Part shown: positions 5,525-14,440 of the stretch, in pieces | Numbering within the stretch: the first letter of the stretch is position 1 | Layout: every line of letters begins with the position of its first letter | Assembly: GCF_008935055.1 (NCBI RefSeq) | Contig: NZ_CP043028.1 | Span: 3,285,001 to 3,349,000, forward strand | From: Pseudobutyrivibrio xylanivorans | GTDB lineage: Bacteria > Bacillota > Clostridia > Lachnospirales > Lachnospiraceae | Direction: 5' to 3' | Length of the DNA stretch: 64,000 nucleotides | Made by a program: the position numbers and the translations under genes | The notes under the pieces: model-generated | Databases searched by the model: none | The model's input: only the letters and a program-made list of their open reading frames with translations | What the model was told of the DNA's origin: nothing

Positions 5525-6358
5525 TTATCCTAGCGTGCCCGTGTGCCTATCAATTGAAAATACTGTCCTGAATTCTGTCCCCTCTCCCAGCGTACTCTCA
5601 CAAGTGATACTTCCCCCGTGGCACTCAACGATGCTCTTCACTATAGAAAGACCGAAGCCACATCCATTGTCCGCCCCAGGGGTTCTAGAGGCATCCACGC
5701 GATAACCTCTATCAAAAATCTTCTCAATATTTTTAGCATCGATTCCGATGCCATTATCTCTCACAAAAACTACTAAACTGCCGTCATCAATAATATCTGC
5801 GCCAAGGATAATCTTTGGCTTATCGTCACAATATTTCACCGCATTGGTAAAAAGATTGTCCAGCGCTCTGGCAATCAAATGCGGATCTAACATAACGAAT
5901 GGATTAAGCTCGATAAATGCATCCGAAAGCTTAAGCTCCAAGTCGCATCCCTCGTAAGCCACATCCACTTGATTCATATAGAAGTAATCCTCCAAAAAGA
6001 AACGGAGGTTTACCGGTTCCGTATGGACTGAAAGCGATGGTGTATCAAGCGAAGCCATCAAGAAAATATCGTTGATGAGTTGCGTAAGATACTTAGTTCT
6101 CTCCGACATCACCTTCAAGGTGTCATGAAGTTCTCCCTTGGAAATATTATCCTCGTTGGACTGAAGATACTCAATTCCGTTGCTGATAGCAGTGATCGGT
6201 GAACGAAGGTCATGGGAAATATTAGCATAAAAAAGAGCCATATCCTCCTCGTGAGCCTGCAGATCCCTATTAGCCTGCTGTAGTTTCTTGGAAACCTCGT
6301 ATAGTGATTGTGTTAAATCTGACACCGATAATTCCGGTGTTTTAAAATCGTTCTTCAT
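5525..6358 (-). CDS. Soluble sensor histidine kinase
   Basis: This 277-residue kinase lacks membrane spans, unlike most sensor kinases. It opens with a coiled coil (residues about 12-42), then HisKA with the phospho-acceptor in ISHDLRSP (His about 49), an N-box FTNAVKYCDD, G1 RDNGIGID and G2 GCGFGLSIVKSIV of HATPase_c. It pairs with the response regulator 60 nt upstream. No dedicated sensor domain is visible, so the signal must come through the short N-terminus or a partner. The pair sits directly downstream of the lasso precursor genes, beyond a terminator. Confidence 0.93.
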   Translation of the reverse strand: MKNDFKTPELSVSDLTQSLYEVSKKLQQANRDLQAHEEDMALFYANISHDLRSPITAISNGIEYLQSNEDNISKGELHDTLKVMSERTKYLTQLINDIFLMASLDTPSLSVHTEPVNLRFFLEDYFYMNQVDVAYEGCDLELKLSDAFIELNPFVMLDPHLIARALDNLFTNAVKYCDDKPKIILGADIIDDGSLVVFVRDNGIGIDAKNIEKIFDRGYRVDASRTPGADNGCGFGLSIVKSIVECHGGSITCESTLGEGTEFRTVFSIDRHTGTLG

Positions 6359-6417
6359 ATTTATTCATTTTAGTATATCTTTTATATTTGTTCTTTTTGT
6401 TATCTTAATACAAAAAA

Positions 6418-7116
6418 TTAAGCCTTTTTGTTCATAGCAAACTTATATCCCTTTGACCAGATAGTTTCGATACTATTTTCCAACCCCGGATAAAGGTCCA
6501 ATTTCTTTCTAAGTCTACTGGCGGTAACCATTATCGTCTTGCGATCCGAATCAATATAGCCGCCCCAAATAGAATTGCCTAATTCCTCGAATGTAAAAGT
6601 TTTAGTAGGCGATTTTGCAAGCAATATTAGAAAATCCAGTTCCTTGTTTGACAACTGAATCTTTTCATCATTGAAATATGCCGCATGCTTTGATAAATCG
6701 ATATGAAGTGGCGCAAAATCTATGATTTCCGTCCTTGGTGAAGCAGTGTTCTTGTACCTTCTAATCAGCACCTGAATCCTGACCTCTAGCTCTCTCAAGC
6801 TGTATGGCTTCACCATATAATCGTCTGCGCCTAAAAGCAGACCATTTACCTTGTCATCCTCCGAATCCTTTCCTGTAAGGAAAATAACCGGAGTATTATA
6901 TCTATCTTTAACCCATTTGCAAAGCTCAAAACCGTTTACACCTGGCATCATTATATCCAAAACAATACAATCAAAAGCGCTGTTATCAGAAAGCTCCCCG
7001 ATGGCCATCACACTATCTGTAGCTGTGACCACGTCGTAGCCGTACTGCTCGAAAAACTTTTTGTTAATTGACAACACTTCTTGATCGTCGTCTACTAGTA
7101 ATAACCTGTTGCTCAT
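6418..7116 (-). CDS. OmpR-family response regulator
   Basis: The protein is 232 residues from MSNRLLLVDDDQEV. A longer reading frame begins at 7167, but GGAGGG sits 5-6 nt before the ATG at 7116, deciding the start. The receiver domain has acidic pocket LLVDDD, phospho-acceptor Asp about 54 (IVLDIMMPG), FLTGKD and the KPYSLREL lysine. The C-terminal winged helix (LSNKELDFLILLAKSP, TIMVTASRLRKKLD, WSKGYKFA) is OmpR/PhoB type. It is transcribed with the kinase. Head-to-tail repeats near 934 and phased TGTTAG copies near 7665 are possible targets; neither link is shown. Confidence 0.95.
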   Translation of the reverse strand: MSNRLLLVDDDQEVLSINKKFFEQYGYDVVTATDSVMAIGELSDNSAFDCIVLDIMMPGVNGFELCKWVKDRYNTPVIFLTGKDSEDDKVNGLLLGADDYMVKPYSLRELEVRIQVLIRRYKNTASPRTEIIDFAPLHIDLSKHAAYFNDEKIQLSNKELDFLILLAKSPTKTFTFEELGNSIWGGYIDSDRKTIMVTASRLRKKLDLYPGLENSIETIWSKGYKFAMNKKA

Positions 7117-7200
7117 TAAACCCTCCATGCTAGCATGCGCTAACATCTTCAGTGCTAAAAATACCAAAACATTCTATCACAAAAATTTAATCAAATTCGC

Positions 7201-7231
7201 AAAAAAGCGGGAACCTTGTGGTCCCCGCTTT
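7201..7231 (-). terminator. Terminator of the lasso precursor genes
   Basis: On the minus strand AAAGCGGGGACC, a 4-nt loop and GGTTCCCGCTTT form a 12-bp stem with one mismatch, continuing into six T. It lies 24 nt after the last precursor stop and ends the lasso locus before the two-component genes. Confidence 0.92.
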
Positions 7232-7254
7232 GTAATCATTTAACAATCCTTTGA

Positions 7255-7389
7255 TTATGATTCAAAGTTTACGTGCTCTGCACCATTCTCATCAAACCAA
7301 TGATTATCGAAACGACGTGAAGGTACTCCACCTTCCTTTGTTGCTGTGAATTCGATTTCCTCTACAGCTGCATTTTCCCATGTCTTCAT
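7255..7389 (-). CDS. Lasso peptide precursor, second copy
   Basis: This 44-residue peptide (135 nt) is too short for usual ORF calls. It begins MKTWENAAVEEIEFTAT and shares MKTW, VEEI and FTAT with the sister gene 42 nt upstream; the C-terminal half differs. Gly20 and Asp28 align in both peptides. A core starting at Gly20 would allow a nine-residue Gly1-Asp9 macrolactam, the usual lasso ring. Predicted core is 25 residues, GGVPSRRFDNHWFDENG then AEHVNFES. The C-terminal Ser fits modification by the HprK-like kinase of the locus. GGAGGA precedes the ATG. Oddity: conserved Thr17 would be at -3, not the usual -2. Confidence 0.85.
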   Translation of the reverse strand: MKTWENAAVEEIEFTATKEGGVPSRRFDNHWFDENGAEHVNFES

Positions 7390-7431
7390 AGTAATTTCCT
7401 CCGTTTTTAGTATTGTTGAGAAATCTAAATC

Positions 7432-7569
7432 TTAAGACTTAAATGTTCCTTCCCATTTGCCTGTCTCTGTGTTGTACCACTGATTATCAAAATCGTTATC
7501 CTGTGGTCCACCGTACTGTGTTGCTGTGAAGTTGATTTCCTCAACTACTGGAGTGTTCCATGTCTTCAT
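7432..7569 (-). CDS. Lasso peptide precursor, first copy
   Basis: This 45-residue peptide (138 nt) is the first of two tandem precursors behind a dedicated promoter. The leader is MKTWNTPVVEEINFTAT; the predicted core is GGPQDNDFDNQWYNTE then TGKWEGTFKS (26 residues). Core acidic candidates are Asp7 and Asp9 counted from Gly20; Asp9 (residue 28) is shared with the sister peptide and preferred. The core ends in Ser, as expected of a kinase substrate in paeninodin-type loci. AGAGGG lies 8 nt before the ATG. Placing precursors after the enzymes, rather than first, is unusual for lasso clusters. Confidence 0.85.
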   Translation of the reverse strand: MKTWNTPVVEEINFTATQYGGPQDNDFDNQWYNTETGKWEGTFKS

Positions 7570-7620
7570 AATTTTTCCCTCTTTTCTTTAAAAAACTATA
7601 TAGCCCTTGCTACGTTATAT

Positions 7621-7649
7621 AATATAATGTTACGAACACATTTTTACAA
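7621..7649 (-). promoter_or_regulatory. Promoter of the lasso precursor genes
   Basis: On the minus strand TTGTAA (7644-7649), 17 nt and TATATT (7621-7626). It lies between the cyclase stop and the first precursor ATG and would let the peptides be made in excess over the enzymes. The predicted 5' UTR is about 45 nt. Confidence 0.65.
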
Positions 7650-7657
7650 TACACCTA

Positions 7658-7699
7658 ACAGTTTTGTTAGAATCTGTTGTGTTTTGTTAGAATTGTTAG
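7658..7699 (-). promoter_or_regulatory. Phased TGTTAG repeats upstream of precursor promoter
   Basis: In plus-strand notation GTTTTGTTAGAA occurs at 7661-7672 and 7681-7692, exactly 20 bp apart. TGTT hexamers lie at 7665, 7675, 7685 and 7694, roughly one per helical turn. The array is just upstream of the -35 box and overlaps the cyclase stop codon. One copy with a longer match (ACAGTTTTGTTAGAA) recurs at 14426-14440 upstream of the first gene of the locus. This points to a common regulator acting on both promoters. Confidence 0.6.
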
Positions 7700-9633
7700 A
7701 TGACATTCTTCTTCTCAAGAATTTTCAAATATTTAGAAAAAGAATATATATCACTAACTAATAGTCCATCCCCCTTATCCAATCCATCATCTACGCTCTT
7801 AATCAAAGTGTCCACTTTACTTTGATCAATATACTTCAATACATGGGCTGTATATATTGATTCCTTAATTATAGTTTTTGTTTCAGGCCATACCTTATTT
7901 GCTCTATAAATATTATCACCACTCTGGGCGCCCCTATGACATATATCCTCGCGAATTTCTTTCGGAACTATCCCTTTCATGCCCACTCGAACTAATCGTC
8001 GATCGAAATCAGAGGATGAGAAGCACTCCATTGGAAGCTTTAAACACATTTCAACTACTTCTACATTTCTGATTGGATCTCTCAGAAGTATTCCATATTT
8101 TAAACTGTCCTTGGTGTCAATTTCTCCTATTTGAGAATTAGCATCTATCATATACATATATTCCCGCATTTTATTCATGCTCGTAAATGGATAATAATGC
8201 ATCATCTTCTTTCGAAAACGATTTGTCAGATTGTTCTTTTCACCAATATCTTTTCTAGTAACATTTTCCCGATAAACATTCTTTGCATCTTCATCAAAAT
8301 ACCATTTATAATAATCCACTAAACTTTTGAACATACCCTTGATAAATTTCTTTCGGGAAGCATTATTATTTTTCAATGGATCGAGCATTCGTAACGCTTT
8401 CAAGAATCTAAATTTTTTAGCATAAAATACAGCTGAGTTGGTAAAATCTCCGGCAGAAATGGTAGTATTTCCCGTAGCACCTGTAAGCATTATTTTGACA
8501 CCATTTTTAGAAGCCTGTTTGTAAATTTCATCTAGCCAGATTGCATTCTGTTGTGATTTGCATGGCATTTCCCAATAATCCAATATATCGTCAACCTCTG
8601 TTAAATAGCTGCGCCCTTTTGAATCGACAAAAGTTGGCACAATATTCGGATATGCCTTGCAAATAACTTCCACTCCCTTTTGCTCGTTGTAGACTCTATA
8701 GCCTTTTTCAGGCAGCCCCGCCTCCTTTAATGGAATTGATGTATAAGTATAGAGTTTTTCTCCTTTTGCTGCTAATTTCCCAGCAGCTATACACGCTACA
8801 GTTGATGAATCGAGCCCTGAACTCAACTGTGAAGATATTTTAATATCATCTCTCAAAATCATTGAAACTGATTTAGTCATGGTATCTCTAGCCATTTCTT
8901 CGCTCTGCTCAAGCGTAATAGACCAATCCGTCTTGATTCTATTTTGTGGATCAAAATATCTAGTCTCACGTGTTTCTATTTCACAATTCGAAGCAACCAA
9001 CTTGAATTCTACATAAGTACCAGAAACAACCTTAAATACATCTAATGCCGCCGTCTCTCTTGGTTCAGTAATCATAGCAGGTGATCGCATGGATACTGTA
9101 TCAACAAGCCACCTTTCATTCTCTTTAAACTGAAGCCCTGTGCAATCCAGCATAGGGAAAAACAGAGTAGAAAAATAAAGCACCCCGTCTCTTACATGGT
9201 ACATAAGGCATCGCTGTGCGAACTGATCTACAGCCATGAATACTGCATTGTCTTTTCTGCTATATATTACAAAAGAAAAAGCCCCCCTTAATTTCTCAAG
9301 ACAAGCCTCTCCCCATTTATAGTAAGCCTCAAGAATAATCCTTCCATCAGGAATATCATCTGGAAGTCCCAATTGTCCAATTAATTCAAAACGATTGTCA
9401 ATTACGCAATCTGCTGTAAAAAACAAGTCTTTCTTCTCATCGTAATAAGGAAGCTGTTCCTTTTCAGCTTCCTTGTTAAAATACTGTATTCCACAACCCA
9501 TAAGTACATTATTGTCTATGCCATACTCTAATCTATCAATAGCACATTCTCTATACTTTTCAGCAAACTTCTCCCCTATTTTAGAATTTACTTCACCTTT
9601 TTTTAAATCAATAACACCAAATATAGCAGACAT
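7696..9633 (-). CDS. Lasso macrolactam cyclase (asparagine synthetase-like)
   Basis: This 645-residue protein has an N-terminal Ntn-glutaminase-like domain (MSAIFGVIDL...) and a C-terminal ATP-pyrophosphatase domain with SSGLDSS (about residue 272), the adenylating PP-loop. The glutaminase nucleophile Cys2 of true AsnB (MCGIFG) is replaced by Ser, as expected for lasso cyclases, which adenylate the Asp/Glu side chain and close the ring with the core N-terminus. It starts one base after the kinase stop. It is the last enzyme gene before the precursors. Context (PqqD-like, transglutaminase-like, ABC exporter) makes lasso cyclase far likelier than asparagine synthetase. Confidence 0.93.
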   Translation of the reverse strand: MSAIFGVIDLKKGEVNSKIGEKFAEKYRECAIDRLEYGIDNNVLMGCGIQYFNKEAEKEQLPYYDEKKDLFFTADCVIDNRFELIGQLGLPDDIPDGRIILEAYYKWGEACLEKLRGAFSFVIYSRKDNAVFMAVDQFAQRCLMYHVRDGVLYFSTLFFPMLDCTGLQFKENERWLVDTVSMRSPAMITEPRETAALDVFKVVSGTYVEFKLVASNCEIETRETRYFDPQNRIKTDWSITLEQSEEMARDTMTKSVSMILRDDIKISSQLSSGLDSSTVACIAAGKLAAKGEKLYTYTSIPLKEAGLPEKGYRVYNEQKGVEVICKAYPNIVPTFVDSKGRSYLTEVDDILDYWEMPCKSQQNAIWLDEIYKQASKNGVKIMLTGATGNTTISAGDFTNSAVFYAKKFRFLKALRMLDPLKNNNASRKKFIKGMFKSLVDYYKWYFDEDAKNVYRENVTRKDIGEKNNLTNRFRKKMMHYYPFTSMNKMREYMYMIDANSQIGEIDTKDSLKYGILLRDPIRNVEVVEMCLKLPMECFSSSDFDRRLVRVGMKGIVPKEIREDICHRGAQSGDNIYRANKVWPETKTIIKESIYTAHVLKYIDQSKVDTLIKSVDDGLDKGDGLLVSDIYSFSKYLKILEKKNVI

Positions 9634-10551
9634 TTATGCCCCCTCTTGAACACATTTATCTATAAATCCAATGATATCAGGTAGTGTATTAATAGCCTTA
9701 GGGCGAGCTATCTGGTACACCTTAATCGTGGATGCCACCTTGAGACACTGCTTCATATACATCGGTGGTACCCCCCAACTATGGAATCCATCAGAACCTC
9801 GATAAATATTCTTCATCAATAATGATAGCTTCTCCTGCCCCTTCACCTCACGAATATCAAGTTCATCGGAATCTGACACAACAAGTTCAAAAAGATAATC
9901 AAAATCCTTTCCATCTACTAGATAGCCATCCTTTAATCTGAGTGCAAATTTATCTCTATCTTCATTTATATAGATTAAATCCTCTAGATTATATCCTCTG
10001 TTCAAAGCTGCATCTCTGCAAAGCTTCTGCTGTGGATAAGCCATGTTGATATGTGCCTTACTTCCATTATCAGTAAGTGCACATACATCATCTGCTATAA
10101 ACTTGTACCCCATATCTAAAAGAGAATCCGAAACCGTAGACTTGCCAGCACCACTTTCGCCAGTAACAATGACCCCCTTGCCGTATTTAGATATTCCACC
10201 ACCATGCATTACAACCATATTTCTAAGAATCATACAGTAACCAAAGGAGCTTCCTAAAAGGAAGCATTTAATCTGTTCTTCAGCAGCATTTTCAAATGGC
10301 TTAATTGTGATAATGTTTTCAGTTACCCAATAATCTCCCACATCAGGGATTCTAAATGCCATTGCTGACCTAGTTGTTGCGACAAAAAAATCTGATTCCA
10401 TTTTATCTTTATACATTGCTTTTACTTCGTTAGGAAGGTCCCCATAGACCACCTTAACATCTGGTTCACCATCGAAGTCCTGGGCGTAAGCCTCTTCGAT
10501 TTCCAGTTCGGACTCCACATGGAGACCATATAATAAATATTTGAAACTCAT
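9634..10551 (-). CDS. HprK-like kinase of the lasso locus
   Basis: The protein is 305 residues from MSFKYLLYG; an upstream frame to 10617 runs into a stem-loop element, and GGAG precedes the ATG at 10551. The P-loop GESGAGKST (about residue 130) and following FIADD resemble the HPr kinase/phosphorylase core, without the full HprK N-terminal domain. In paeninodin and pseudomycoidin loci such kinases phosphorylate the precursor's C-terminal Ser, and both precursors here end in Ser. The N-terminal domain (VTENIITIKPFENAAE) probably binds peptide. It is separated from the peptidase gene by 122 nt containing the stem-loop. Confidence 0.88.
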   Translation of the reverse strand: MSFKYLLYGLHVESELEIEEAYAQDFDGEPDVKVVYGDLPNEVKAMYKDKMESDFFVATTRSAMAFRIPDVGDYWVTENIITIKPFENAAEEQIKCFLLGSSFGYCMILRNMVVMHGGGISKYGKGVIVTGESGAGKSTVSDSLLDMGYKFIADDVCALTDNGSKAHINMAYPQQKLCRDAALNRGYNLEDLIYINEDRDKFALRLKDGYLVDGKDFDYLFELVVSDSDELDIREVKGQEKLSLLMKNIYRGSDGFHSWGVPPMYMKQCLKVASTIKVYQIARPKAINTLPDIIGFIDKCVQEGA

Positions 10552-10577
10552 AACAATTCTCCAACCCTCTCTAATCA

Positions 10578-10663
10578 GCCTTGTTACAGCGACAAGCCTT
10601 GGTATTACTCTGTTCAACTACATGTTTCACTGAGTAACACCAAGAGCTTGACACTTACAAGGC
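10578..10663 (-). ncRNA. Conserved three-stem element, copy 1
   Basis: Nested inverted repeats are GCCTTGT (10578-10584) with ACAAGGC (10657-10663), then CAAGC with GCTTG, then TTGGTATTACTC with GAGTAACACCAA. The apical loop contains CTACATGTTTCACT in plus-strand sense. The same architecture with different stem sequences occurs at 36457-36608 and 39320-39402. All three copies share orientation and lie 14-37 nt upstream of a minus-strand start codon. It could be a structured mRNA leader or a palindromic repeat. Transcription is assumed, not shown. Confidence 0.6.
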
Positions 10664-10673
10664 CACCAGAGTG

Positions 10674-11102
10674 TTACATACAAAATTTTGCCACGGTGGC
10701 ATAGCTGCTGCCGTCGCCACCTGTTACATATTTATCACCACATCTGAGCCAGGCATGTGCAATCATTGAACCCTGCTCATCCTTACCAACGCCAAGATAC
10801 ATGGTGGTAAGAATACTCTTGCGGTGTAAAAGAAAACGCGCTGTAAGAGCGCGCACCAAGCACTTGCTCTCCCATGGCGTCTTGTCTGCGATTCGGTTCA
10901 CCTCGCAGGATACGCAGTAAGCATACCAATAGTGCTCCCTGGTATCCTCCTCAGGTGACTCCACGCCCTTATCGCCCCAGTGTTGTTCAAGCTTCTTGCT
11001 TGGAATCAAAAGCATCTGGGCGCGATAAAACGCAGTTAGTCCATAGATGGCAAGTGTCATTTTTTTATTTGGATTGATCTTAAAAAAATTAACTACATTC
11101 AT
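10674..11102 (-). CDS. Lasso leader peptidase (transglutaminase-like B2 protein)
   Basis: This 142-residue protein matches the lasso B2 cysteine peptidase (transglutaminase core). The catalytic triad is visible as Cys81 in ESKCLVRALTARFLL, His116 in MIAHAWLRCG and Asp130 in VTGGDGS. It removes the leader so that the cyclase can join the new core N-terminus to a side chain, acting with the PqqD-like RRE encoded 3 nt upstream. Length is normal for a free-standing B2. A stem-loop element begins about 10 nt after its stop. Confidence 0.92.
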   Translation of the reverse strand: MNVVNFFKINPNKKMTLAIYGLTAFYRAQMLLIPSKKLEQHWGDKGVESPEEDTREHYWYAYCVSCEVNRIADKTPWESKCLVRALTARFLLHRKSILTTMYLGVGKDEQGSMIAHAWLRCGDKYVTGGDGSSYATVAKFCM

Positions 11103-11105
11103 CTC

Positions 11106-11381
11106 TTAAACCAATGATACAAAACCATAATCCTTCATTTGATTTACGAATGAGATAACAGACTCCTGACAAACTTCTCTGTCCACATCATATTCCTTCA
11201 AAAGGTTTTCAACGATAGTGCTGATATCCATGTTATCCTCCATCATATCCCAGATATCGTTGCCGCTTCCCTTAATCATGAAATATTTGCCGCTATCAAA
11301 ATCAATCATAACTTTCTCCCCGTCAAGCTCTGTTACGTCAAGCTTCTTTTCGATTTTGATTTTCTTGTTCATTAAATCCAT
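11106..11381 (-). CDS. PqqD-like RRE protein (lasso B1)
   Basis: This 91-residue protein is a PqqD-like RiPP recognition element: TELDGEKVMIDFDSGKYFMI (the LD...YF pattern), then NDIWDMMEDNMDISTIVENL and the helix-turn-helix end. It binds the leader peptide and presents it to B2 and the cyclase. AGAGGG lies 10 nt before the ATG. It overlaps the 3' end of the exporter gene by 44 nt, so translation is probably coupled; a start at 11372 (MNKKIK) is possible. Confidence 0.92.
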   Translation of the reverse strand: MDLMNKKIKIEKKLDVTELDGEKVMIDFDSGKYFMIKGSGNDIWDMMEDNMDISTIVENLLKEYDVDREVCQESVISFVNQMKDYGFVSLV

Positions 11382-13068
11382 AACTTATTTCCCTCTTGTC
11401 TATCTTTTTATTTTCGATTTTGATCTGCCTGTCACAATATGGAAGCACAGATAATCTATGTGTGATTATGATGCAAGTAGGCTTTGGTGAAATGCTCTCT
11501 AATCCCTTAAGCACCGCAATCTCTGTCTCAGAATCCAATGAGGATGTTGCCTCATCGAATATGATAAATGGAGCCTTTCTAACAAGGCATCGTGCAATGG
11601 CGATACGTTGCGCCTGACCCTCTGATATACCGTGGCCTCTCTCGCCAATGACTGTATCTATCCCATTTGGGAGTTCCATAACGAAATCGTAAGCTGCCGA
11701 CATCTTAAGAGCTTCTATCATCTCTTCCTCTGTAGCATCAAGCTTACCCATTCGGATATTTTCTCTGATGGTTCCACTGAAAAGGGTATTGCCTTGTGGA
11801 ACATAACTCATGAAATCACGCATTCCTGCGCCGGCTGGTACAGGCTTTCCGTCCTCTCCCTGAAACGAAATATTTCCACTGTAGCGACTCATGAATGACA
11901 TGATAAGTCTGATAAGTGTAGTCTTTCCAATTCCCGATTCACCGATAATAGCAACAAACTCTCCTGGCTTTATATCAAGACTAACGTCCTCTAAAACATT
12001 TTCCTTTGAATCATAACCAAAAGTGAGGTTATCCACATGAACACCTATTGACCCCTCTGGTTTATCAACAGCTTCACGCTTCTCAAGTGGAATATTTTCC
12101 AAATCCATTACACGCTCTGCTGATGCAAAAATCTGAACAATCTTTGGAATCTGCTGTGCAAGTCCAATAATTGGTGCCTGAATTCTGTTGATTAACACAA
12201 GAAACAGTGACATTGTTCCGTAAGTGATAGTGTTTCTTGATAATGAAATTGCTCCAAATGTGAAAGCCACAATGTACGCAAGCTGAAAACTAAGCGACAT
12301 AACCGAGCCACTGAAGATGCTCATTCGGCTCTTCTTGTATACCCAGTTAAAACGTTCATCTCTAAGCTCTACCAATCTGTTTGTCGCATAATCCTCATTA
12401 GCGAATGATTTAACTACCAAAAGGTTTGCCATGCTCTCCTGAATAAATGAACGATAAACTGACTCTGACTCCTGAACTCTAAGAGAAAGATATTTTAGCT
12501 TACGTCCAAGGAAAATACTCACCAGTGCAGCCACCGGTCCCAAACAAAGTGCAACAAGCGCAAGTATTGGCTGATAGTAAAGCATCGTGATAAATGCCGC
12601 CAAGAACTGAACTCCAAGCTTTACAATAGTTGGAATCGTATAGATGATTCCGTCTGCAATATTTCCCGCATCACTGGTAAGACGTGTCATCAAATCACCA
12701 GTGTGATATTTTTTTATATCCATCCAGTAAGCACGAACAATTTGCTCGTATACCTGCTTTCGGATACCAAATGAGAACTTTTCATCCAAAACCAGCGAAA
12801 GCAGTTGGCTTCCCATATCAAAAACAATCACCGCTAAAATCATGACTGCGTAGGCAATTAAAAGACCAATAACGCCATTTCCACCTGTAGCCTTATCGAT
12901 GATACTCTTCGAAGTAATGGCCATGCCAAGACCAAACAATGTACCAACTATATCCATTCCCATAATGAGAATTATCTTTGGCAAATATGGCTTAGTGTAT
13001 TCACACAACCATTTAAAATATGTTTTCTGATTAGGCCAATCTCTGACCCATTTTCCAAAATTACTCAT
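11338..13068 (-). CDS. Lasso peptide ABC exporter
   Basis: This 576-residue half-transporter is fused permease plus ATPase. Six membrane spans (about residues 28-300) precede the nucleotide-binding domain with Walker A GESGIGKTT, signature ISEGQAQRIAIARCL, Walker B FIIFDEATSSLD and switch His in ITHRLS. There is no N-terminal C39 peptidase, consistent with leader removal by the separate B2 enzyme. It would export the finished peptide and give self-protection. The last 15 codons overlap the RRE gene. It lies 18 nt downstream of the nucleotidyltransferase gene. Confidence 0.93.
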   Translation of the reverse strand: MSNFGKWVRDWPNQKTYFKWLCEYTKPYLPKIILIMGMDIVGTLFGLGMAITSKSIIDKATGGNGVIGLLIAYAVMILAVIVFDMGSQLLSLVLDEKFSFGIRKQVYEQIVRAYWMDIKKYHTGDLMTRLTSDAGNIADGIIYTIPTIVKLGVQFLAAFITMLYYQPILALVALCLGPVAALVSIFLGRKLKYLSLRVQESESVYRSFIQESMANLLVVKSFANEDYATNRLVELRDERFNWVYKKSRMSIFSGSVMSLSFQLAYIVAFTFGAISLSRNTITYGTMSLFLVLINRIQAPIIGLAQQIPKIVQIFASAERVMDLENIPLEKREAVDKPEGSIGVHVDNLTFGYDSKENVLEDVSLDIKPGEFVAIIGESGIGKTTLIRLIMSFMSRYSGNISFQGEDGKPVPAGAGMRDFMSYVPQGNTLFSGTIRENIRMGKLDATEEEMIEALKMSAAYDFVMELPNGIDTVIGERGHGISEGQAQRIAIARCLVRKAPFIIFDEATSSLDSETEIAVLKGLESISPKPTCIIITHRLSVLPYCDRQIKIENKKIDKREISYGFNEQENQNRKEA

Positions 13069-13086
13069 AACAATTACTCTAAAAAA

Positions 13087-14334
13087 TTACTCCTCGTCCA
13101 AAAGTCCAACACTGCTCATAAGGCCAAGTCTATTCTCCACTACTATCATCTTCTCAGTAGCTGAGTACTGCCCCTCTTCCTTTTGGAACAGGCTCCAGAT
13201 AGCCTTATAACCAAATCTGTGAATCCAAGCTATTGGAAGTAGGAGCGGATTCTCCTTCGCATATACGTATCTCTCTCCAAGCTCCTCAGCCTTTGGAAAA
13301 AGGAATCTTATGATACGTCCTGATTTGCTACCATTAACCGATGTCAAATTACCCACAAGATAAGGCTCAAGTGTAGTGGTAAGCTGCCAATCCTCGCTTC
13401 TAAGCTGTGCTTCGTCGCCCTTGTAGATAAAATCAACAATCATAGCCTCCAACACTTCTTTTGAAGCTTTTGGCTTTCGGCCCTCTGTAAAAGCTGGATT
13501 CATACCAAAATACTCCACGCAAATTCCTAAGAAATTCTCGCAGAAGAAACCATAATTCAATTTATCCATCATTTGCCAAAAATAATCCTTGGAAAGCTCG
13601 TCGAAATGACGATTTACAAACAGAGTGATATCTGTAAAGAATCTAACACTAGCTCCCTCAAGCATAAAATGCTTAATGATATGAAACATCTGATAGACAA
13701 GATGCTCATTGTGACCAAATGTCCGAACCTTTTCCCCGTCGACTTCCACAGTGATTCGCTTAGATGGTGATTCTAAGTCCGCTGCTTTAAGTTTGTCGAT
13801 TTTCTGACCTTCATAGTCTTCATAGACTGTGGTATGAAGTTCAATCATATGTCCCGTCGTTTCGTTCTCATAAACGAAGACATGCTCTTTAGTCTTGTGC
13901 TCATTTTTCACATAACCACGCTTTTCAATCATGGCACAAACTGCTGCTGCATCACCTGAATCCACTAAAATATCTGAATCGGATGACGGTCTGTATGCAG
14001 GGTTTGGATAACAGTCTGCAACAACTATGCCCTTAAAAATGGCATAGTCAATCCCTGATGATTCAATCTCCCTAATCAAATCAATCAATGCATGGAAGTG
14101 CTTCTTTTGACGCACAAAAATCTGGAATCGAAAGAAGTCCCATCTCTTTCGAAGTTCCTCTGGCAGGCTGCTCTGTGCCTTTGCCACGTCATAAGTCACA
14201 CCTGCAAGAGTATTCCTGCAGGCTAACTCATAAACTTTCTCCCAATCTGCTGATAAAAAATGGCCATCATCCGATGTATCTTGGATAATGGCCTTGCTTG
14301 TCAGTTTTATAAAATTTGTGTCCTGTAACTTCAT
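13087..14334 (-). CDS. Nucleotidyltransferase family protein of lasso locus
   Basis: This 415-residue protein of the NTP_transf_5 type has the diagnostic FKGIVVADCYPNPAYRPSSD followed by SDILVD, where D-x-D ligands bind metal, then HMIELHTTVYEDYEG. Members occur in lasso loci beside the HprK-like kinase; in pseudomycoidin the equivalent adds sugar to the phosphorylated residue. A comparable second-step tailoring of the phospho-Ser is inferred here. It is the first gene of the lasso operon, with a promoter at 14375-14403. Confidence 0.9.
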   Translation of the reverse strand: MKLQDTNFIKLTSKAIIQDTSDDGHFLSADWEKVYELACRNTLAGVTYDVAKAQSSLPEELRKRWDFFRFQIFVRQKKHFHALIDLIREIESSGIDYAIFKGIVVADCYPNPAYRPSSDSDILVDSGDAAAVCAMIEKRGYVKNEHKTKEHVFVYENETTGHMIELHTTVYEDYEGQKIDKLKAADLESPSKRITVEVDGEKVRTFGHNEHLVYQMFHIIKHFMLEGASVRFFTDITLFVNRHFDELSKDYFWQMMDKLNYGFFCENFLGICVEYFGMNPAFTEGRKPKASKEVLEAMIVDFIYKGDEAQLRSEDWQLTTTLEPYLVGNLTSVNGSKSGRIIRFLFPKAEELGERYVYAKENPLLLPIAWIHRFGYKAIWSLFQKEEGQYSATEKMIVVENRLGLMSSVGLLDEE

Positions 14335-14374: not shown

Positions 14375-14403
14375 AGTATATATGCAATGAGTTTCTAAAT
14401 CAA
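14375..14403 (-). promoter_or_regulatory. Promoter of the lasso enzyme operon
   Basis: On the minus strand TTGATT (14398-14403), 17 nt and TATACT (14375-14380), about 40 nt before the nucleotidyltransferase ATG. It is the only good sigma-A-like pair I see in this 180-bp gap. Confidence 0.6.
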
Positions 14404-14425
14404 TCTAAATACGTTATACAAAGTA

Positions 14426-14440
14426 ACAGTTTTGTTAGAA
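14426..14440 (-). promoter_or_regulatory. Operator-like motif shared with precursor promoter
   Basis: ACAGTTTTGTTAGAA here is identical to 7658-7672 upstream of the precursor promoter. It lies 22 bp upstream of the -35 box. The partner repeat 20 bp away is not conserved here. This suggests one regulator for both lasso promoters, perhaps weaker at this one. Confidence 0.5.

Follow-up and report, generated by a model that had tools for sequence, protein, structure and literature searches.

A two-precursor, kinase-type lasso-peptide cassette predicted in Pseudobutyrivibrio xylanivorans MA3014

Gene Content and Proposed Biosynthesis

The chromosome of Pseudobutyrivibrio xylanivorans MA3014 very probably carries a self-contained, kinase-type lasso-peptide cassette that would make two peptides. 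The window analyzed is a 64,000-bp stretch of this chromosome (RefSeq assembly GCF_008935055.1, contig NZ_CP043028.1, positions 3,285,001 to 3,349,000), and coordinates below are counted from its first base. A preliminary description had placed an eight-gene lasso locus at 7255-14334; all eight genes (N, exporter, B1, B2, kinase, cyclase, A1, and A2) were confirmed at those coordinates and on that strand, the six larger ones having Pfam matches, with catalytic residues intact. Its limits were slightly too narrow, as a response regulator (RR) and a histidine kinase (HK) downstream belong to the cassette, which spans 5525-14334. Counterparts of the downstream part occur on contig C423 of a congener, G311 (locus L018 below). 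The genes are as follows.

13087..14334, minus strand: N, PF14907 nucleotidyltransferase, 415 amino acids (155.9 bits against a cut-off of 31.2), proposed second tailoring enzyme
11338..13068, minus strand: D, ATP-binding cassette (ABC) exporter (PF00664 and PF00005)
11106..11381, minus strand: B1, PqqD-like recognition element of ribosomally synthesized and post-translationally modified peptides (RiPPs) (PF05402, 67.9 bits against 23.4; NF033536, 77.5 against a cut-off of 80)
10674..11102, minus strand: B2, transglutaminase-like leader peptidase (PF13471, 66.6 against 26; NF033537, 68.1 against 33)
9634..10551, minus strand: K, HprK-like kinase of the lasso tailoring type (PF07475, 37.9 bits against 33.3); ATG start taken, upstream TTG of the open reading frame (ORF) list set aside
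7696..9633, minus strand: C, Asn-synthetase-like lasso cyclase (PF00733, 81.6 bits against 21)
7432..7569, minus strand: A1, precursor 1, 45 amino acids, MKTWNTPVVEEINFTATQY / GGPQDNDFDNQWYNTETGKWEGTFKS (cut after residue 19 assumed); L018 counterpart at 5726-5869
7255..7389, minus strand: A2, precursor 2, 44 amino acids, MKTWENAAVEEIEFTATKE / GGVPSRRFDNHWFDENGAEHVNFES (cut after residue 19 assumed); L018 counterpart at 5547-5684
6418..7116, minus strand: RR, OmpR/PhoB-type response regulator, part of the cassette (PF00072 and PF00486); ATG start chosen, with a TTG upstream in the ORF list
5525..6358, minus strand: HK, histidine kinase, part of the cassette (NCBIfam histidine-kinase models; 74% identical in L018)

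The features that mark a lasso locus are present: a cyclase, a B2 protein with its Cys and His, and precursors with a leader Thr and an acidic residue at ring distance. The best NCBIfam match of the cyclase is the lasso model NF033535 (E 9.8e-59, 199.5 bits), and the protein starts MSAIFG, without Cys2, in agreement with the earlier characterization of it as Cys-less. It has 169 relatives at E <= 1e-30; among the best 120 of these the closest is 66% identical, and a fragment from a Pseudobutyrivibrio metagenome-assembled genome is 64% identical. Catalytic positions are conserved in B2 (C81 and H116 in 19/19 aligned sequences, window included; no conserved Asp was found in the segment of this alignment after the His), in the kinase (H116, K137, D154, and D155 in 46/46, window included), and in the nucleotidyltransferase (Arg/Asp/Asp in 21/21). 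The kinase residues fit the His-Lys-Asp-Asp set described in PMC9266682. The product of N has a nucleotidyltransferase fold, and its gene stands in one operon-like run with the kinase gene. In another lasso-type locus (L025:921-2990) the kinase and a PF14907-type nucleotidyltransferase are fused in a single ORF of 690 amino acids adjoining a lasso-type leader peptide, which supports the view that the two enzymes share one substrate.

In the proposed pathway, the Trp-led leader, whether of A1 or of A2, would be bound by B1; the kinase would phosphorylate the C-terminal Ser, and the nucleotidyltransferase would elaborate the Ser phosphate. Once B2 had cut off the leader near the conserved Thr17, precursor residue Asp28 would be linked by the cyclase to the new N-terminus around a threaded tail, and the exporter would release two different peptides. 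Phosphorylation of the final Ser and subsequent modification of the phosphate are suggested by analogy with paeninodin and pseudomycoidin, for which such kinases are reported to phosphorylate the C-terminal Ser and hexose addition to need a nucleotidyltransferase of this kind (PMC9266682).

The Two Precursors

A complete lasso locus bearing kinase and nucleotidyltransferase genes and two Ser-ended precursors had been proposed for the window, and this is supported. By eye, a ribosome-binding site precedes both A1 and A2, and in L018 two precursors, 43% and 44% identical (tblastn), occupy the same positions in the same order; A1 and A2 are therefore not chance ORFs. Failure of the small ORFs to be conserved with the enzymes had been named as a sign against them; G311 keeps both beside its cyclase. 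The counterpart of A1 is the first L018 precursor (MKTWNTP) and that of A2 the second (MKxWENA); the precursor duplication is therefore probably older than the split of the two species. To judge from the aligned residues, 25/45 of which differ between window and L018 in A1 and 24/44 in A2, the cores change fast. Despite this change Thr17, Gly20, an Asp at Thr+11, and the final Ser are kept between the species, and all four are common to the five closest precursors (A1, A2, the two of L018, and a protein designated P0002).

A search of about 5.8 billion proteins with A1 returned the window's own protein and a single relative, P0002, which has a nearly identical leader and a different, Ser-ended core; no identical A1 core was found. 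The search depends on shared five-residue words, and the L018 precursors were not among its results. The suggestion that the cores are new thus holds for A1 in this search; such loci were described from rumen Butyrivibrio and Lachnospira in 2020 (PMC7533575). A broader scan, with a leader profile that favors uniform leaders, took in the window and 47 lasso loci, of which six are duplicates (48 sequences in all). Its 67 hits, after merging of identical precursors, gave 56 distinct precursors with leaders of the A1/A2 type; five of the 56 have no acid at Thr+10 or Thr+11 and may not be lasso precursors.

Several observations weigh against the lasso-cassette assignment or against parts of it. The cyclase scores below the cut-off of NF033535 (199.5 against 525 bits). 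Neither A1 and A2 nor either L018 precursor matches the precursor model NF033524 at E <= 0.1, and no other Pfam or NCBIfam model matched A1 or A2 at that threshold; against the NF033524 cut-off of 27, P0002 scores 17.1, one precursor of locus L074 14.5, and a Priestia control 57.7 bits. In the leader of A2 (window 7255-7389) the WxxP recognition motif reads WENA and thus has no Pro, as in its counterpart (L018:5547-5684). Codon positions 1/2/3 differ at 20/15/25 sites in A1 and 18/17/22 in A2, an excess at third positions that is not marked, so that this two-species comparison gives no marked sign of purifying selection. Of the distinct precursors with an acid at Thr+11 and not at Thr+10, 27/36 have no terminal Ser, though kinases are common in their loci, and a kinase from another phylum modifies Ser3 rather than a C-terminal Ser (PMC10368454). 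As to the comparison with congeners, only part of the G311 cyclase is present, at the end of a contig; DUF4422 in G311 lies on another contig and is followed by a different gene (UDP-glucose dehydrogenase by eye), so that only the metallophosphoesterase side demonstrates a shared site; and 8/29 genus genomes are less than 90% complete or more than 5% contaminated.

The same tailoring genes could also belong to a locus for linear polyphosphorylated peptides (LPPs), a Bacillota RiPP family that shares the kinase, nucleotidyltransferase, recognition element, and MsbA-like exporter and whose loci often lie beside paeninodin-type loci (PMC13381572). LPP loci are described there as having an SpI-type leader peptidase, a Tyr-led leader, and no cyclase. 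The window, in contrast, has a cyclase and B2, a leader Trp as in paeninodin-type precursors, and an acid at ring distance in both precursors, and family scans of the cassette genes recognized no signal-peptidase-like gene; an LPP locus is accordingly very improbable.

Cassette Boundaries and Proposed Regulation

The two-component pair and the lasso genes belong to a single cassette, because the genes that flank them here lie almost side by side in relatives that lack them. DUF4422 occurs in 28/29 genus genomes and the flanking metallophosphoesterase in 14/29; in 12/12 lasso-less congeners having the latter (E <= 1e-20) the gap between the two is about 10-117 bp (in one, G299, the metallophosphoesterase is split over two frames). 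In the window the distance is 9,012 bp and contains ten lasso and two-component genes. The order in G311 matches that in the window: C-terminal part of the cyclase (54% over 164 residues), two precursors, RR (77%), HK (74%), and metallophosphoesterase (64%), with the same junction between the last two.

The signals found around the two transcription units are these.

14424..14440, minus strand: 17-bp motif TTCTAACAAAACTGTTA upstream of N, the second of two exact genome copies
14375..14403, minus strand: sigma-70-like promoter TTGATT-17-TATACT before N (consensus scan only, 9/12)
7656..7672, minus strand: 17-bp motif TTCTAACAAAACTGTTA upstream of A1, with another TTCTAACA 20 bp further upstream; the exact motif occurs only twice in the 3.58-Mb genome
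7621..7649, minus strand: sigma-70-like promoter TTGTAA-17-TATATT before A1 (consensus scan only, 9/12)
7201..7231, minus strand: terminator-like hairpin and U tract between A2 and RR (-20.6 kcal/mol, z -4.61)

Both exact copies of TTCTAACAAAACTGTTA thus belong to the cassette, one before each lasso transcription unit. With two mismatches allowed, two further places in the genome match, and a reversed control pattern has three matches at up to two mismatches. The motif before A1 is partly conserved in L018, where by eye two TTCTNACA repeats lie 20 bp apart upstream of the A1 counterpart and the 53-bp distance to TATAACGTAG is the same. The promoter scan gave 43 matches against 31.5 (sd 5.5) in shuffled sequences, and the matches on their own are thus of little weight. 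The precursors likely have a promoter region of their own, as claimed earlier. The hairpin, which is absent from the list of the consensus scan, has an equivalent at the same place in L018 (z -4.12).

Expression of the enzyme unit (N to C) and of the precursor unit (A1-A2) is probably under the control of the two-component pair, acting at the putative shared 17-bp site. Regulators of the OmpR type abound (a first look gave 36 candidates in this genome), and the pair might be a mere neighbor, the repeated 17-mer being due to chance or belonging to another regulator. We consider this unlikely: the cyclase (E <= 1e-40) and RR (E <= 1e-60) occur in the same 2/29 genus genomes, RR being found in none of the other 27, and similar genes are reported in rumen lasso clusters (PMC7533575). 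Among 41 lasso loci, relatives of RR and of HK are each present in at least 18, the nucleotidyltransferase in at least 18, and the kinase in at least 36; these counts are lower bounds with no background rate behind them, some loci being incomplete. L018, whose cyclase is incomplete, and six duplicates of named contigs were dropped from this set, near-identical pairs (L084/L085 and L087/L088) were kept, and 5/41 loci have no precursor found. No membrane segment is predicted for HK, as none of its 19-residue windows exceeds 1.6 on the Kyte-Doolittle scale; the signal that it senses may therefore come from inside the cell.

The preliminary description had regarded the position of the precursors at the end of the run as a departure from the usual order. 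This did not hold up: in 31/36 related loci with both genes, window included, the precursor closest to the cyclase is on its 3' side, on the same strand in 25 of these, and the paeninodin order is printed as C A K B1 B2 D (PMC5067487). A Priestia plasmid locus has the order cyclase-precursor-kinase-B1-B2-exporter. Plasmid pNP243 of B. fibrisolvens D1 bears a related lasso locus (L112:7635-18849), in which two nucleotidyltransferases are annotated, and such loci can therefore be extrachromosomal.

Leader Cleavage and Ring Size

The leader register is highly conserved. The Thr lies 13 residues after the leader Trp/Tyr in 56/56 distinct precursors (a uniformity partly built into the leader-profile scan), and the Trp-to-Thr spacing is likewise 13 in 46/47 Bacillaceae paeninodin-type sequences, all collected with one Priestia query; the 47th has an N-terminal extension and was left out, as no Thr at Trp+13 was found within the first 12 residues searched. 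The position of the ring acid differs between the groups. It is Thr+11 in both A1 and A2 (A1 has an additional Asp at +9) and in 26/26 Trp/Phe-led sequences of Lachnospiraceae, Eubacterium, and Clostridium in Table 3 of PMC7533575 (35 rows, 30 after merging of identical ones). It is Thr+10 in 44/46 Bacillaceae-type sequences (of the other two, one has an acid at +11 only and one at neither), as well as in a Paenibacillus locus and a B. cereus row of the same table. Among the 56 distinct precursors, Asp occurs at Thr+11 in 38 and Gly at Thr+3 in 41, the residue at Thr+2 varying; the Lachnospiraceae are not uniform, since 12/56 have an acid at Thr+10 and not at Thr+11.

For the core sequence that we take paeninodin to have, a core ion of m/z 1209.50 fits Ala1 (1209.504) and not Gly1 (1173.985), placing the cut after Thr+1. 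The ion is published in PMC5067487. If this cut is kept, a ten-residue ring follows here; if rings are held to at most nine residues, the cut must be shifted by one. Two accepted rules, Thr at -2 and rings of no more than nine residues, are thus set against each other. The core lengths of 25 and 26 residues given earlier apply if the cut precedes the first Gly; the measured register of paeninodin gives 26 and 27. For unmodified lasso peptides, the cut before Gly gives calculated masses of 3002.274 and 2884.270 Da and the paeninodin register 3165.338 and 3013.313 Da, each phosphate adding 79.966 Da.

A cut two residues after Thr17, with Thr at -3, cores starting GG, and a nine-residue ring Gly1-Asp9, has in our judgment an even chance of being correct. 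Predictions for the rumen relatives start at that Gly (PMC7533575, Table 3), a Gx7D rule is given in PMC13289728, natural rings are stated to have 7-9 residues (PMC5067487; PMC8498205), and the frequencies of Gly at Thr+3 and Asp at Thr+11 beside a variable Thr+2 agree with it. However, the Trp-to-Thr spacing equals that of paeninodin-type leaders, whose cut follows Thr+1, and three B. proteoclasticus-type precursors have His/Arg at Thr+3 yet keep Asp at Thr+11. PMC7533575 places Thr at -3, the conflict with paeninodin passing unremarked in its text; this is not independent evidence, since its Table 3 divides even a paeninodin-like precursor from Bacillus one residue downstream of where the measured cut of paeninodin would fall.

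The canonical cut after Thr+1, giving cores that start with Tyr or Glu and ten-residue isopeptide rings (Tyr1-Asp10 and Glu1-Asp10), falls somewhat short of an even chance. It would preserve both the leader register and the paeninodin cut, and a C. beijerinckii precursor with T-Q-L-G-G (acid at +11) and a Priestia one with T-M-L-G-G (acid at +10) resemble each other as far as the ring, as though the former had one ring residue more. An analogue of fusilassin/fuscanodin with a ten-residue ring has been made in vitro (PMC8498205), but no natural one was found in literature listings, judged mostly by their entries. Residue 1 would also vary widely (Q, Y, N, G, H, F, E, and others), and A1 by itself would permit Tyr1-Asp8, which A2 would not. 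The remaining possibilities are trimming or something else. The wider proposal, that a clade comprising A1, A2, and most of the Lachnospiraceae precursors examined keeps the Thr(-2) cut and makes ten-residue rings beyond the 7-9 limit, in the present locus as a pair with nucleotidylated or glycosylated phosphoserine tails and under a dedicated two-component system, is tentative and on balance doubtful; if true, it would define a natural lasso class outside that limit.

Relation to Published Systems

The type of system is already known, and the register conflict is common to most relatives examined. In 2020 Sabino et al. described lasso clusters from Butyrivibrio and Lachnospira of the rumen (PMC7533575), and rumen lasso genes are reported there as transcribed. 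These clusters share with the window the leader pattern MKxW...T..G, the acid at Thr+11, and nearby HPr-type kinase, PqqD, nucleotidyltransferase, and two-component genes; their nearest precursors (YAB3001), in contrast, have other cores. The main text of that paper makes no mention of Pseudobutyrivibrio, and the window cluster is not named in it or in PMC13289728, supplementary tables aside.

Paeninodin (pade) resembles the window in its His-Lys-Asp-Asp kinase, split B1/B2, cyclase-then-precursor order, C-terminal Ser, and Trp 13 residues before Thr. It differs in having the acid at Thr+10 and one precursor in the printed order, against two here, and in the remaining gene order. The window thus has the kinase signature and predicted Ser-ended precursors of the paeninodin family, but not a match to NF033524 or an acid at Thr+10. 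Pseudomycoidin (psm), as described in PMC9266682 and PMC7533575, likewise has a kinase and a nucleotidyltransferase.

The locus comes from a cultured rumen strain with a complete genome and has the expected enzymes and two substrates in less than 9 kb, so the cassette can be expressed whole. How the register question is answered would affect most of the precursors examined from Lachnospiraceae and clostridia, for which the published core predictions depend on an assumption.

Two other kinds of precursor were seen among the related loci. Some that lie beside lasso loci have the same leader, no Asp/Glu at Thr+10 or Thr+11, and the ending LS or FS (L080:1720-1932, L075:9546-9749, L095:12132-12314, and L102:16011-16190); these are possibly a Lachnospiraceae counterpart of LPPs. 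Others have a short extension beyond an internal SFxS, for example SFASGADSN... (L074:11968-12147, L075:13028-13168, L021:7686-7868, and L024:11232-11438), which might be trimmed to expose the kinase target; relatives of these, such as that of L. multipara D15d, stop at the Ser of SFxS.

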